Shown here: positions 117 through 8,060 of the stretch, piece after piece
Position numbering within the stretch: the stretch's first letter is position 1
Layout: the number at the start of each line of letters is the position of its first letter
Origin: a bacterium
GTDB taxonomy: Bacteria; JAHJDO01
DNA: 8,971 bases
NCBI GenBank assembly: GCA_030652805.1
Contig: JAUSPT010000010.1
Location: 1-8,971 of the forward strand
Reading direction: 5' to 3'
Made by a program: the position numbers and the translations under genes
Notes under the pieces: model-generated
Told to the model about the DNA's origin: nothing
Databases searched by the model: none
The model's input: only the letters and a program-made list of their open reading frames with translations

Positions 117-287
117 ATGGACATCGTAGAAAGATTAAAAGGCATCCTGAAAAAGGATCAGCTACTTGCCCGTGACTGGGACGAATATGGCGATGACATC
201 GAATGTGAAATCGAGGATGCTATTGAGGAAATTGAGCGGCTGAGAATATCTCATTTAAATATTGACAAACATACACCACACGCGTAA
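117..287 (+). CDS. Small acidic hypothetical protein, 56 aa
   Basis: The ATG is preceded by GAGGA at 106-110 with a 6-base spacer, which supports the start. The product is strongly acidic in its middle (residues 21-40 are dominated by D and E) and ends in a short polar tail. No catalytic motif, signal peptide or membrane segment is visible. The predicted fold is mostly helical (MDIVERLKGILKK, then EIEDAIEEIERLR). Small acidic helical proteins of unknown function are common in phage early regions. It lies between a possible DNA-binding protein and the structured leader of the HNH gene. No function is proposed. Confidence 0.6.
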   Translation: MDIVERLKGILKKDQLLARDWDEYGDDIECEIEDAIEEIERLRISHLNIDKHTPHA

Positions 288-317
288 TGGTGCTTGTGAA
301 AGGTAATTCTATGAGAA

Positions 318-421
318 GTCACGGTCTCGACAATCAATTTAAAATTCAAATAGGGTATATCAAAAGACTGCACTCCCTGTGTAGTTCAGGAGCCGTGACC
401 TCCGTTTTGGTATGCCCTATT
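318..421 (+). promoter_or_regulatory. Candidate pseudoknotted leader RNA upstream of HNH gene
   Basis: Bases 349-365 (AATAGGGTATATCAAAA) pair with 405-421 over 17 positions without a mismatch if two U-G wobbles are allowed. Those two pairs work only in + strand RNA. Inside the loop, GGAG (389-392) pairs with CTCC (400-403), exposing a 7-base loop CCGTGAC (393-399). That loop is fully complementary to upstream GTCACGG (318-324), and CTC at 326-328 can extend the pairing. The result is a pseudoknot. A competing hairpin, 373-379 with 387-392, also exists. The SD (430-436) and ATG (442) of the HNH gene lie just downstream. No known riboswitch or ribozyme class was recognised. Confidence 0.5.
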
Positions 422-441
422 GGTGTTTTAAGGGGATTGTT

Positions 442-1002
442 ATGACAAAGAAGACCATCAAAAGAAAATCTATAAGCAAAAAATTACGATTCGATGTCTT
501 TAAGAGAGACAACTTCCAATGTGTATATTGTGGGAAAACACCACCAGAAATTACACTTGAGATTGACCACATAGAACCAATTTCAAAAGGTGGAGACAAC
601 GATATAAACAATCTGGTTAGCTCATGCTTCGATTGTAATAGAGGGAAAAGGAATGTTCGCTTAACAAAAAAACCAAACAAAACACCTGAAAACATAGAAA
701 TATTAAAAGAAAAAGAAGATCAACTTAAAGAATATAGAAAATTAATAAGAAAAATTAATAGAAGGATTAATAATAATATTAATGGCATAAACAATATTTA
801 TATAAAGGCTTATCCTGGGTGGGAGTTTTCCGATTCATTTAAAACTGGAAGCTTAAAACGGTTTTTGAATTTTTTAACAAAAGAGGAAATTATTGAAGCT
901 TTAAAGATAGCAATCAGTCGTTTGGGAAACGATAATGATAGGGTAATTAAATATTTTTGTGGGGTTTGTTGGCAGAAAATAAAGGACAAGCGCAATGAAT
1001 AA
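442..1002 (+). CDS. HNH endonuclease with C-terminal replication-associated tail
   Basis: A 186-aa protein. The ATG at 442 is chosen over an in-frame ATG at 412 because AAGGGGA (430-436) sits 5 bases before it, and because the 412 start would lie inside the leader stem. Residues 16-75 form a typical HNH domain: a basic FKRDNFQC entry, zinc-binding C27-x2-C30 and C62-x2-C65, catalytic D42-H43, and N57 in the INNL segment. Residues about 80-115 are a charged, coiled-coil-like linker. The tail includes GSLKRFLNFLTKEEI and a YFCGVCW motif at 171-177. From memory, this kind of tail is seen in phage HNH proteins beside replication genes. It overlaps the next gene by 8 bases. It probably nicks or cuts double-stranded DNA. 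Whether it is a homing enzyme or a replication or recombination factor cannot be told. Confidence 0.88.
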   Translation: MTKKTIKRKSISKKLRFDVFKRDNFQCVYCGKTPPEITLEIDHIEPISKGGDNDINNLVSSCFDCNRGKRNVRLTKKPNKTPENIEILKEKEDQLKEYRKLIRKINRRINNNINGINNIYIKAYPGWEFSDSFKTGSLKRFLNFLTKEEIIEALKIAISRLGNDNDRVIKYFCGVCWQKIKDKRNE

Positions 1003-1765
1003 AGATTTTAGAGTTGCCGTATCGTTTCCGCACCATCCTAAAACAAAAAAACTCATACGACAGTTAGGTTATGAGGCTGTTTATTCATTAATTAATTTAT
1101 GGTCGTTTGTTGCTATGAATAAACCAAGTGGTGTTTTAAATAATATGGATATTGATGATATTGAAATTGCTTCTGACTGGAATGGGGAATGCTCAAAGTT
1201 CGTTTTAGCATTACTTGAGCATAAATTTATAGATGAAATAAGTGGTGTTTATAGTATCCATGACTGGAAAGATCATAACGGATATGCTTTTTATTCACCA
1301 GAAAGATCAAAAAAGGCAAAAAATGCAGCAGAAAGCCGTTGGAACAAAAAGAATAAAAACAATAATTTAATGCTAAACGATGCTAAGGGCATACTACAAG
1401 CATCACCAAGCAATGCCCCTTCTCCTGATCCTTCTCCTGATCCTTCTCCTAATAAAAAGGTTTTTAATCAAAAAGAATTTGAGGTTTTTTATTCAACTTA
1501 TCCTAACCGTAAAGGTAAAAAAGAGTGTCTTGAGCGATGGAAGAAATTACTGAAAAACAATCAGCTTCCTGAAATATCTGTTTTACTGACTGCTGTTAAA
1601 AAACAAACAGCGTGGCGTCAAAATGCAAACGGCGAATTTAGACCAGAATGGAAATACCCGGCTACATGGTTAAATAAAGGCTGTTGGGAAGACGAATTTG
1701 AATTAAAGCTAAATAATTTTGAACCTGCTAATTATCAACCACCGATAGAGGATATTCTTGAATAA
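995..1765 (+). CDS. Phage replication initiator / helicase-loader type protein
   Basis: A 256-aa protein that starts inside the end of the HNH gene, with AAGGA about 10 bases before the ATG. The N-terminal part (about 1-95) looks like the winged-helix domain of phage replisome organiser proteins: KKLIRQLGYEAVYSLINLW, then IEIASDWNG, FVLALLEHKFID and SIHDWKDHNGYA. A low-complexity linker follows, with a PSPD repeat at about 142-152. The C-terminal part (159-232) has the block FEVFYSTYPNRKGKKECLERW followed by EWKYPATWLNKGCWED, typical of phage O/DnaD-like replication proteins. By family it should bind the phage origin and help load the DnaB helicase encoded next. The neighbouring helicase supports this. 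The exact subfamily is not resolved. Confidence 0.82.
   Translation: MNKDFRVAVSFPHHPKTKKLIRQLGYEAVYSLINLWSFVAMNKPSGVLNNMDIDDIEIASDWNGECSKFVLALLEHKFIDEISGVYSIHDWKDHNGYAFYSPERSKKAKNAAESRWNKKNKNNNLMLNDAKGILQASPSNAPSPDPSPDPSPNKKVFNQKEFEVFYSTYPNRKGKKECLERWKKLLKNNQLPEISVLLTAVKKQTAWRQNANGEFRPEWKYPATWLNKGCWEDEFELKLNNFEPANYQPPIEDILE
1418..1453 (+). repeat. Three tandem 12-bp repeats in the initiator linker
   Basis: CCTTCTCCTGAT occurs twice in a row and is followed by CCTTCTCCTAAT, encoding PSPD-PSPD-PSPN in the linker of the initiator-like protein. The repeat unit is a multiple of three, so the frame is kept. In lambdoid phages the origin iterons lie inside the O gene, so an origin role is conceivable. 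A simple flexible linker made by slippage is just as likely. Confidence 0.85.
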
Positions 1766-3107
1766 CATCCCACCACAAAATATAGAATTAGAACAAAGCA
1801 TATTATCATCATGTTTAATAAATACTGAATCCCTTGATGATATTGCTGATATATTAATCCCTAACGATTTTTACAAGACATCGCACCAGAAAATATATTC
1901 AGCTATGCTCGAACTAAAAAGAAAATCTGAGCCGGTTGATATTGTAATGCTTGTAGATAAATTAAAAATATTAAAACAATTAGAACTTATTGGCGGGGCA
2001 AGCTATTTAGCTGTACTTATAGATACACCGGTTGCGATTAATATAGAATACACAGTTAAAAAAATAAAACAATATGCTGTATTACGTAACACAATAGATA
2101 TTTGTTATAAGACCATTCAATCATGTCAAGAAGCAAGCGGGGACACAGATGAGATTGTTGATAAATTCCAAACGGATATATTGAGAATAGACACTGGAAT
2201 ATCCGGTGACAACTATATAGATATGAAACAACTTGCTGTAGAGGGTGAAGATAGACATGAAATAATATATAATAATCAAACTAATGTTTCGGGGGTAGCT
2301 TCCGGTTTTATTGATATTGACAAAGTAACATGCGGATTTCAACCAGGGGACTTAATAATAATTGCAGCAAGGCCAAGTATGGGTAAAAGTAGTCTTATGC
2401 GGAACATGGCTGTAAATATGGCAAAAAAAGAAATACCTAACGCAATAATATCATTAGAGATGTCTAAGGAACAGCTTTATGATTCTTTGTCGGCGAGCGA
2501 AAGCGGAGTCAGTTTAATGAAGTTTAGAAATGGCTGGTTTTCTATGGATGATTGGCGCTTAAAAACAGAAGCTGCAAGCAGATTGTATGAATTAAAGATG
2601 TTTGTTGCCGATAAAGATTGTTTTAAGACGCTGGATATTTGCCGGATCGCCCGAAGGCTTAAAAAGAAAGAAGATATTAAAATTGTTTTTATTGATTATT
2701 TACAGTTAATCGAAGGGGATACAAAAAAAGGCAAAAACTATGAAGTAGGAGAGATAACGCGAAGATTCAAACAATTAGCAAAAGAGCTTGAAATTACGGT
2801 TGTTTTATTATCACAGCTTAATAGAGATTGCGAGAAGCGACCGGATAAAAGACCAGTGTTATCAGATTTAAGAGACTCTGGGTCGATTGAACAGGACGCA
2901 GACGTGGTGATGTTTCCGTATAGACGTGAACAATATATCATGAATAAATACCATGATGACGGCACGATGACGCCAGACATGATAAAGTGGCATGGCAAAG
3001 CTGAGTTGAATATTGCAAAGCAACGCATGGGTCCGACACGGAGAATTAATTTAATATGGCTGGACAAGACGGTGCAGTTTAAGGACGCTGTAAAAGATTT
3101 AAAATAA
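1758..3107 (+). CDS. dnaB: Replicative DNA helicase, DnaB family
   Basis: A 449-aa protein, close to the usual DnaB length. It starts at TTG (1758), supported by AGAGGA 5 bases upstream; the start overlaps the end of the initiator gene by 8 bases. The N-terminal helical domain (about 5-110) reads NIELEQSILSSCLIN through NDFYKTSHQKIY. The RecA-like domain has Walker A ARPSMGKSS (204-212), EMSKEQL (234-240), Walker B IVFIDYLQLI (309-318), and the LSQLNRDCEKRP and LSDLRDSGSIEQDAD motifs (351-382). The C-terminal NIAKQRMGPTRR (418-429) carries the arginine-finger region. The hexamer unwinds DNA 5' to 3' at the phage fork. All catalytic motifs are intact. Confidence 0.97.
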   Translation: MNNIPPQNIELEQSILSSCLINTESLDDIADILIPNDFYKTSHQKIYSAMLELKRKSEPVDIVMLVDKLKILKQLELIGGASYLAVLIDTPVAINIEYTVKKIKQYAVLRNTIDICYKTIQSCQEASGDTDEIVDKFQTDILRIDTGISGDNYIDMKQLAVEGEDRHEIIYNNQTNVSGVASGFIDIDKVTCGFQPGDLIIIAARPSMGKSSLMRNMAVNMAKKEIPNAIISLEMSKEQLYDSLSASESGVSLMKFRNGWFSMDDWRLKTEAASRLYELKMFVADKDCFKTLDICRIARRLKKKEDIKIVFIDYLQLIEGDTKKGKNYEVGEITRRFKQLAKELEITVVLLSQLNRDCEKRPDKRPVLSDLRDSGSIEQDADVVMFPYRREQYIMNKYHDDGTMTPDMIKWHGKAELNIAKQRMGPTRRINLIWLDKTVQFKDAVKDLK

Positions 3108-5200: not shown

Positions 5201-5326
5201 ACACTAATCTACAGCGCTTAAAGCGCTAATCTATGATGCGCCAAACAGGATAGTTATAAACTCACGCATTAATCTACAGTGCTGTTAAGCCATTATTCCA
5301 ATTTTTAAAGCGCTAATCTACAGTGC
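5201..5326. repeat. Four 17-19 bp imperfectly palindromic repeats (operators or iterons)
   Basis: Copies lie at 5201-5217, 5223-5241, 5264-5282 and 5310-5326, with consensus RCGCTAATCTACAGYGC. Each carries short inverted arms (GCGCT and AGCGC in the best copies). Copies 2 and 3 are 2 bases longer. Between copies 1 and 2, AGCGCTT-A-AAGCGCT forms an extra palindrome. The last copy touches the stop codon of the winged-helix gene. The spacing is irregular, so this is not CRISPR. Origin iterons or operators bound by the adjacent winged-helix protein are the simplest hypotheses. Confidence 0.75.
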
Positions 5327-5665
5327 CTAATGTATATCTACCATTGTAAGGGGTGAAAGCCCAAGAGACTTCCAGCGATACGAAAGAATATAGAAATTCT
5401 TTTTTCGGTAAAGCCCGCCTTTTTGAACAACTTCAATAAACCCAATTTTCAGTAATTCCCTAATTTCTTTGCCAAAAGTCGCTTGGCTCATCTCGTCTTT
5501 CATTTCCCGATATGATACTGAAACCTGTTCGCCCTTGTTTGGATTGTATTTTCGTTTAATCCTTAGATAGGCTAATTTTGAATACCATTTGAGGAAACGC
5601 CATTCTTTTGAGTCGTACATGGAATGATAAATTTGGATAAACAACTCGCGGTCTTTTCTTGACAT
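5327..5665 (-). CDS. Winged-helix DNA-binding protein (regulator or initiator-like)
   Basis: A 112-aa protein starting at the ATG complementary to 5663-5665, chosen because GGAGGTG lies just upstream. It resembles small phage winged-helix proteins that begin with a KDRELFIQIYHSMYDSKEW-like block: the helical core KWYSKLAYLRIKRKYNP (26-42), then SVSYREMKDEM (49-59) and TFGKEIRELLKIGFIEVV (63-80) as the recognition part, and a basic wing GGLYRKKNFYILS (83-95). From memory, relatives often occur in mobile elements and may regulate or initiate replication. It is the last gene of the - strand unit. The four repeats directly past its stop could be its binding sites, and its SD and start lie in a long inverted repeat. 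Confidence 0.75.
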   Translation of the reverse strand: MSRKDRELFIQIYHSMYDSKEWRFLKWYSKLAYLRIKRKYNPNKGEQVSVSYREMKDEMSQATFGKEIRELLKIGFIEVVQKGGLYRKKNFYILSYRWKSLGLSPLTMVDIH

Positions 5666-6620: not shown

Positions 6621-6899
6621 TTACCAATAAATATTATTATTAAGCTGGTGTAACATAATCTCTAATCGTTTTAATATAGTCTTATAGCTTCTACGTTTAC
6701 CCTTCCTGATTCGCATTAATAAAGAATTCTCGTCGAACCGATGTTCCTTGCAATGAGCACTTCTTGATAAAGCAATTAAATTATCTGGGCTGTCATTAGT
6801 AAAATCCCTATCCTTATGGTGGATGTCACAACCTTTTGGAATTTCACCGTAATACTCTTGATATGCTTTTCTTGTTTTGTTGCCGTTATGTTTTAACAT
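6621..6899 (-). CDS. HNH endonuclease, small free-standing
   Basis: A 92-aa protein. The ATG complementary to 6897-6899 is chosen because GGAGGAACCC lies directly upstream; a longer in-frame start would overlap the SD. Residues 20-53 carry the HNH core: IPKGCDIHHKDRDFTNDSPD with H27-H28 and D30, N40-L41 in DNLIALS, and H49/H53 in SAHCKEHR. The tail is basic (MRIRKGKRRSYKTILKR) and probably binds DNA. No zinc-cysteine pairs are present, unlike the HNH protein at 442-1002. It is probably a mobile, homing-like nicking or cutting enzyme. It is the first gene of the - strand operon, just behind an attenuator-like leader. Confidence 0.88.
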   Translation of the reverse strand: MLKHNGNKTRKAYQEYYGEIPKGCDIHHKDRDFTNDSPDNLIALSRSAHCKEHRFDENSLLMRIRKGKRRSYKTILKRLEIMLHQLNNNIYW

Positions 6900-6913
6900 G
6901 GGTTCCTCCAAAT

Positions 6914-7529: not shown

Positions 7530-8060
7530 ATGACAAGAGCAGAGGAAATAGCAAAGCAAGAAGAATGGATTAAAAAACATCCATCATACAAGAAACCAAG
7601 AAGGGTAGTCTTTTATAAGTCAAGCCAGTCTAATAAAAAAATTAAGCCATCTAAAAAACATAGACAAAAGAATATAAATAAAGAGTACCGAAAGGCATTA
7701 AGAAGAAATAAACGTGGGCTTATTACAAATATAACAAGATCAGAACAAACCTTCAAAGACCTGCTTAACGCATTAGAGATAGAATATAATTTTCAAAGGA
7801 TTTTTACAGTCGGCAAGAAAGGTTATATAGTTGATTTTTATTTAACGGACTATTTAACTGTTATTGAAATTGACGGCTCTAATCATAACGAGAAAGAACA
7901 AGATACAAAAGACGGTGAGAGGACAGACAATTTGTTAAAATTGGAGAAGATTAAACATATTATTAGATTTGATAACGACGAAGTTCTTTATATGTCTATA
8001 AATAATCTTAAAAGAATCCTGGGATTAAAGATATGCCCATTTATTGAGGACTTGTTATGA
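7530..8060 (+). CDS. PDDEXK endonuclease, DUF559/Vsr-like
   Basis: A 176-aa protein whose ATG follows GGGGAAGAGAG (7516-7526). Residues 1-65 are very basic and likely bind DNA. The C-terminal domain (70-165) matches the DUF559/Vsr-type nuclease fold: E72 in SEQTFKDLLNALEIEYNFQ, then IVDFYL with D102, and VIEIDGSNH with E113, D115 and H119. A GERTDNLLKLEKIKHIIRF helix-strand follows. This is the PDDEXK (or EDxHD homing-like) active-site layout, and all key acidic residues are present. It may be a free-standing homing endonuclease or a repair-type nickase. Its position just before the terminase genes is a common place for phage endonucleases. The stop overlaps the next start (ATGA, 8057-8060). 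Confidence 0.8.
   Translation: MTRAEEIAKQEEWIKKHPSYKKPRRVVFYKSSQSNKKIKPSKKHRQKNINKEYRKALRRNKRGLITNITRSEQTFKDLLNALEIEYNFQRIFTVGKKGYIVDFYLTDYLTVIEIDGSNHNEKEQDTKDGERTDNLLKLEKIKHIIRFDNDEVLYMSINNLKRILGLKICPFIEDLL

Follow-up and report, generated by a model that had tools for sequence, protein, structure and literature searches.

The translational control of replication initiators by leader reading frames and RNA pseudoknots is a textbook mechanism of plasmids. ColIb-P9 repZ is reportedly the pseudoknot case of leader-peptide control. In ColIb-P9 a loop pairs with sequence adjoining the Shine-Dalgarno (SD) sequence, and riboswitches also use a three-way junction with a loop-loop contact. Among the I-complex plasmids, translation of repB is necessary for expression of repA (PMC10286972). 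Hairpins are also associated with homing endonuclease genes of T4 and Aeh1, where an alternative late promoter leaves out the hairpin (PMC2988022).

The DNA considered here (the window, a stretch of 8,971 nucleotides) carries a structured leader directly upstream of an HNH endonuclease gene. This leader RNA appears to be previously undescribed and is probably a translational RNA switch. The specific reading preferred below, a cis-acting leader RNA in which a leader reading frame and a kissing-loop contact switch the translation of phage replication and recombination gene clusters, is given about an even chance of being correct.

Predicted fold and covariation of the leader RNA

Two relatives of the leader were recovered. 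L014 (IMGVR_UViG_3300035698_009019) was found by an exact IMG/VR scan with the hairpin-B sequence, and L049 (IMGVR_UViG_3300000558_000008) came from a scan for the ribosome-binding site (RBS) motif, followed by a covariance-model filter with a model built on the window and L014. The predicted leader folds are very stable at all three loci (z about -5 to -8). For positions 301-445 of the window the predicted energy is -51.3 kcal/mol, against -32.0 +/- 4.0 kcal/mol in dinucleotide shuffles (z -4.84), with 0 of 200 shuffles as low. The elements of the fold are as follows.

313-328, plus strand: hairpin A, GAGA(AGUCACGG)UCUC, loop 317-324; stem invariant in the three loci
329-345, plus strand: 5' strand of the outer helices (P1a 329-335, P1b 338-345), from folding
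349-365 (5' strand) with 405-421 (3' strand), plus strand: core stem, from folding; five double compensatory pairs relative to L049
366-386, plus strand: hairpin P2, stacked on the core stem; double changes in 7 of 8 pairs across the three loci
389-403, plus strand: hairpin B, GGAG/CUCC stem, loop 393-399 CCGUGAC; stem invariant
425-441, plus strand: 3' strand of the outer helices, predicted to mask the SD and the stretch ahead of the start codon
430-435, plus strand: AAGGGG, SD of the next gene, inside the outer-helix region; TTTAAGGGGRTTGTTRTG conserved at all three loci

The core stem comprises 17 bp, two of them U-G pairs (356/414 and 360/410), exactly as a preliminary description of this DNA had proposed, and joins P2 and hairpin B in a three-way junction. 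The proposal that the stem is perfect only in plus-strand RNA was likewise borne out, minus-strand RNA losing 7 pairs in the window and 8 in L014. The same description had the structure end nine bases before the SD, whereas in the predicted fold the outer helices (P1a pairing 329-335 with 435-441, P1b 338-345 with 425-432) run over the SD at 430-435 up to the HNH start codon. Their 15 pairs are kept across the three loci apart from one gapped cell. The predicted probability of being unpaired is about 0 at 428-432 and 435-440 in the window, and the SD downstream of the leader is predicted to be paired in both the window and L049. Hairpin 366-386 had been overlooked, as had the leader frame and the outer helix that sequesters the SD.

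The L014 leader is 91% identical to that of the window, with homology stopping at the following gene's start codon. The two differ at 10 positions, including 5 at paired positions that all keep the plus-strand pair (P = 0.015). L049 is more distant (about 60% identity to the window over the structural alignment); it scores 53.3 bits with the covariance model (E 2e-11) and on its own folds to the same architecture (-56.0 kcal/mol, z -8.5). When the three leaders, of which two are 91% identical, are aligned by structure, in an alignment that was fitted to the structure model and so favours it, 12 of 48 pairs have both sides changed yet remain paired, kissing-loop pairs left out of the count, and standard pairs occupy 99.3% of the cells; the model-free fold of L049 agrees. 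Neither value was reached in any of 500 shuffles, and slid structures give 0-2 such pairs. The double changes affect 7 of the 8 pairs of P2 and 5 of the 17 in the core stem. Sequence itself is conserved in the two kissing-hairpin stems, in the outer helix and in TTTAAGGGGRTTGTTRTG, and the 3' border of the leader lies exactly at the start codon in all three loci. Compensatory changes in homologues, named beforehand as the observation on which the stems should stand or fall, were looked for and found, which supports the structure. The suggestion of a regulatory RNA gains strong support from the same covariation, at the level of a conserved plus-strand RNA. Judged from these sequence comparisons, conservation of the structure appears close to certain.

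Positions 318-324 (GTCACGG) are complementary over 7 bases to the loop at 393-399 (CCGTGAC), and a nested pseudoknot had been proposed from this match. The complementarity is present, but the upstream strand is not free: it is itself a hairpin loop (hairpin A, 313-328), so that the contact is a 7-bp loop-loop kiss joining hairpins some 70 nt from each other. A shuffled window contains on average 0.18 pairs of hairpins whose loops share 7 or more complementary bases, and 0.01 if at least 5 G/C are required, as in the window. Loop A reads AGUCACGG in the window versus AACGACGA in L049, and loop B reads CCGUGAC versus AUCGUCG, with 0 of 7 positions identical. Within each locus the two loops are nevertheless complementary, over 7 contiguous bases in the window and 6 in L049, with the register in loop A shifted by one; the chance of such complementarity in a second locus is about 0.0012. 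The long-range loop pairing is conserved by covariation across the three leaders, and few parts of the leader change faster than the kissing loops, while the stems of A and B are invariant. In folds of truncated transcripts of the window and L049, strands A and B pair directly prior to formation of the core stem. This shared intermediate, seen in minimum-energy folds rather than kinetics, suggests a conserved folding path.

Long, sharp-bordered inverted repeats common to otherwise unrelated loci could also be DNA-level elements (a mobile palindrome, a cruciform or a nicking site) with no RNA function. The pairing described above, however, needs U-G, the other strand is broken at 7-8 places, the 3' border coincides with the start codon at 3 of 3 loci, and the covariation extends to non-nested loop-loop pairs; a DNA-level element is accordingly regarded as scarcely credible. 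A riboswitch sensing a ligand or protein, or an autoregulatory mRNA site bound, for example, by the replication initiator, would account for the three-way junction with its loop-loop contact and for the invariant stems of hairpins A and B, the kiss then organizing a pocket as it does in purine riboswitches. The junction nevertheless lacks conserved unpaired bases from which to form one, its linkers being 0-2 nt long; there is no Rfam match, and the members are few, unlike those of known riboswitches. This explanation is regarded as very unlikely.

Searches for further members have returned little. No family in Rfam 15 (HEARO and the known riboswitch and ribozyme classes included) matches the leader at gathering or permissive thresholds, in agreement with the initial impression that it belongs to no known class. 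Nothing in the sequence speaks for a ribozyme, another of the possibilities first raised. Blast of window positions 280-1010 in phages matched only HNH coding sequence, and IMG/VR pattern scans with the leader and leader peptide gave only L014, with L049 reached solely via the RBS motif. The other 36 loci of the RBS-motif scan lack the leader; the pattern is present at L011-L013 and L019-L027 with the rest of the element absent, and L028 is a chance match. Pattern scans of genome contigs found none, and covariance models applied to about 730 different genomes gave nothing convincing and no further member. The 31-bit match of model R2 at L092 1501-1627 (minus strand) is a long near-perfect hairpin in an unrelated genome, with no RBS motif, leader frame or kissing loops, and L032 is likewise weak at 21 bits.

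The leader reading frame and the genes it precedes

The leader contains a short open reading frame, here listed with its putative expression signals and the genes that follow.

262-267, plus strand: TTGACA, candidate -35 element 49 nt ahead of the ATG of the leader frame; a good -10 is absent in the window
299-303, plus strand: AAAGG, SD of the leader frame, 7 nt ahead of the ATG at 311
311-445, plus strand: leader reading frame, 44 codons; its TGA (443-445) overlaps the HNH start ATG (442-444)
442-1002, plus strand: HNH endonuclease, 186 aa (Pfam HNH, 1.5e-13; phrog_14314), first full gene after the leader
995-1765, plus strand: phage replication initiation protein (phrog_9474, 1.5e-27)
1758-3107, plus strand: DnaB-like replicative helicase (Pfam DnaB_C, 3.6e-87)

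This is the sole one of the three frames that is open at the window, L014 and L049 (44, 46 and 45 codons, respectively). Its ATG lies at the foot of hairpin A, which begins within the leader AUG, and its stop overlaps the next start as ATGA in the window and L049, and in L014 falls 6 nt further on. When the two independent lineages are shuffled, the frame is open at frequencies of 0.08 and 0.096; a chance-open frame in both would have p about 0.008, which is suggestive rather than decisive. An AAGG-type SD stands 7-10 nt upstream of the leader ATG at 3 of 3 loci, though the region is otherwise unalignable. Taken as sequence features, these point to a leader frame that is likely translated. The leader peptide is hardly conserved, having diverged in L049, and lacks relatives in the databases, tblastn in phages and plasmids having returned chance matches only; for these reasons, if translated, it probably matters in cis. 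No slippery heptamer for a programmed frameshift from the leader into HNH was seen by eye.

The distance from TTGACA to the leader ATG is 49, 52 and 49 nt in the window, L014 and L049, respectively. In L049 it forms part of a promoter, TTGACA-17-TATATT with TG, that matches 11 of 12 consensus positions, is the only promoter-like site found nearby by consensus scan and has a -10 that ends about 20 nt upstream of the leader ATG. The same scan does not call the window promoter, in which the -10 is poor, and it found no plus-strand promoter-like site inside the leader of either the window or L049.

Downstream of the leader, the gene order in the window is HNH, replication initiator and DnaB helicase. 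L049 has no HNH gene, and the leader is followed by a 10-codon frame, a replication initiator (phrog_2562/9474) and a gene that appears primase-like by eye. The 10-codon frame of L049 (MRRRPNKNGR, about 1277-1309, minus strand) overlaps both the leader stop and the initiator start, and is possibly a link in a chain of coupled re-initiations or the remnant of a deleted gene. In L014 the leader is followed by an HNH remnant that has lost its catalytic middle (compare L034) and then by the helicase half of a recD-like gene. That recD2-like helicase gene (L014 6-2118) is split in its linker by the leader and decayed HNH; its halves match phrog_4412 at 166-304 and 329-737, with about 24 profile positions missing between them. 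Because the gene it serves has decayed, the L014 leader may be non-functional.

Several other features of the window may be recorded here. Within the replication initiator, a CCTTCTCCTGAT tandem repeat (1420-1452) encodes a PSPDPSPDPSP linker. Three copies of an 18-nt repeat (CTAATCTACAGCGCTTAA-like) and two exact 16-nt copies lie in the intergenic region 5204-5330 and could be origin iterons or operator sites. A second small HNH gene (HNH_3) is found at 6621-6911 on the minus strand, and 7530-8060 encodes a DUF559 (Vsr-like nuclease) protein extended at its N terminus by a basic segment, near a terminase small subunit gene.

The gene context at all three loci is DNA replication or recombination. 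HNH kin of the gene in the window directly precede replication initiators in JBD44, Louie, Yoshi and G4, and among seven annotated phages no structured leader was found upstream of related HNH genes (z -1.3 to +0.7). The upstream regions of other phage replication initiators gave no covariance-model match. The presence of the leader in L049 with no HNH gene, together with related HNH genes that have no leader, indicates that the leader belongs to replication and recombination clusters and is not HNH-specific. The earlier idea of a cognate element of the nuclease is not supported, on the same two observations: the closest annotated phage HNH homologues are unstructured upstream, and the L049 leader precedes an initiator with no HNH.

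These gene orders also bear on a simpler explanation, in which the leader is a plain RBS-sequestering hairpin that silences HNH as in phage homing endonuclease genes, the kiss only stabilizing it and the leader frame being incidental. The outer helix is predicted to mask the SD, the published T4 and Aeh1 cases likewise have stable RBS-masking hairpins (PMC2988022), and in L014 the leader and decayed HNH interrupt a recD-like gene, the kind of position expected of a homing gene. A plain hairpin does not, however, fit L049, in which the leader serves a replication initiator, nor the HNH family of the window, which normally precedes phage replication initiators without such a leader, and simple masking would require no covarying kiss or open leader frame. 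It is considered unlikely.

A possible translational switch

Under the preferred leader-frame and kissing-loop reading, transcription would start just upstream of the leader frame, and in the resting fold the outer helix would conceal the SD of the next gene. By translating the leader frame, a ribosome would melt the structure and finish at or beside the downstream start codon, making translation of the next gene dependent on that of the leader. With the 3' strand of the outer helix occupied, the core stem could refold in the ribosome's wake and the A-B kiss could form; the kiss would exclude the outer helix and keep the downstream SD open, acting as the ON half of a switch between two states. 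Predicted energies for the outer helix are -14.3, -12.8 and -18.3 kcal/mol in the window, L014 and L049, respectively, and for the kissing duplex alone about -10.5 kcal/mol in the window and -8.3 kcal/mol in L049. Energies alone favour the outer helix, and given these values a ribosome sitting on its 3' strand could shift the equilibrium. That the kiss corresponds to ON is a hypothesis and the least certain step. With the opposite polarity, the kiss would clamp hairpin A over the leader AUG and repress leader initiation, corresponding to OFF.

By rough geometry, A and B would be too distant to kiss while the outer helix is closed, at about 37 stacked base pair levels (roughly 100 Å). Such a separation exceeds the reach of two short hairpins and their joint helix; an intramolecular kiss would therefore need an open outer helix, whereas an intermolecular kiss would not. 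This estimated distance, and the fast-changing loops on invariant stems, as expected of a specificity element, are what speaks for contact between two leader RNAs, or with a processed leader piece in trans, as a dose-dependent and phage-specific brake on replication genes. A purely intramolecular contact would, however, allow the same drift of the loops. Neither an antisense nor a trans transcript was detected; on the antisense strand, consensus promoter scans gave sites at chance level in the window and L014 and none in L049. An intermolecular kiss is considered quite unlikely.

A broader claim, considered unlikely, is that these leaders represent a new family of RNA switches in phages. The dose of initiator would then be set jointly by translation of the leader frame, by the stem masking the SD and by a fast-diversifying kiss, the last being a phage-specific code. 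If true, the kissing pair could act in trans from one genome copy to another, much as plasmids control their copy number. A covarying analogue ahead of phage replication genes would show phages using plasmid logic, and would offer a compact RNA switch with natural kissing-loop pairs of differing sequence. At the level of structure, an observation made on the raw sequence of a single genome has been borne out by covariation in a distant relative.

Comparison with described systems

The leader resembles the purine riboswitch in its three-way junction and loop-loop contact, and differs in having one kissing hairpin outside the junction, linkers of 0-2 nt and no visible ligand core. Like HEARO and the omega RNAs of IscB-IsrB, it is a structured RNA adjoining an HNH-encoding gene; unlike them, it has no Rfam match, contains an open frame and adjoins a stand-alone HNH protein of 186 aa with no other Pfam domain found.

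As with the hairpins of I-TevI, mobE and segB in T4 and Aeh1, the SD of an endonuclease gene is covered, here by prediction (PMC2988022). Unlike in those phages, the one plausible promoter, which is clear in L049, precedes the entire leader; a covarying kiss and a leader frame are also present, and one member (L049) serves no endonuclease. The gene served is a replication initiator in L049 and, in the window, an HNH gene of a replication-module family.

The nearest working analogue would be the leader-peptide control of rep genes in I-complex plasmids; membership in that class is not claimed, since no antisense RNA was found and Rfam gave no match. Differences from the I-complex plasmids are the phage setting, the antisense RNA not found and, in the window, the HNH gene that separates the leader from the initiator; unlike in ColIb-P9, the phage kiss joins two hairpins and not a loop with SD-adjacent sequence. 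The replication initiator follows the leader after the 10-codon frame in L049 and after HNH in the window, and a decayed HNH and recD-like helicase take its place in L014. As in ColIb-P9 repY-repZ, IncB repB-repA and R1 tap-repA, a structured mRNA leader contains a short frame that may be coupled to the next gene, and, as in the control of ColIb-P9 and IncB plasmids, loop-based tertiary pairing is located upstream of a replication initiator (in the window and L049).
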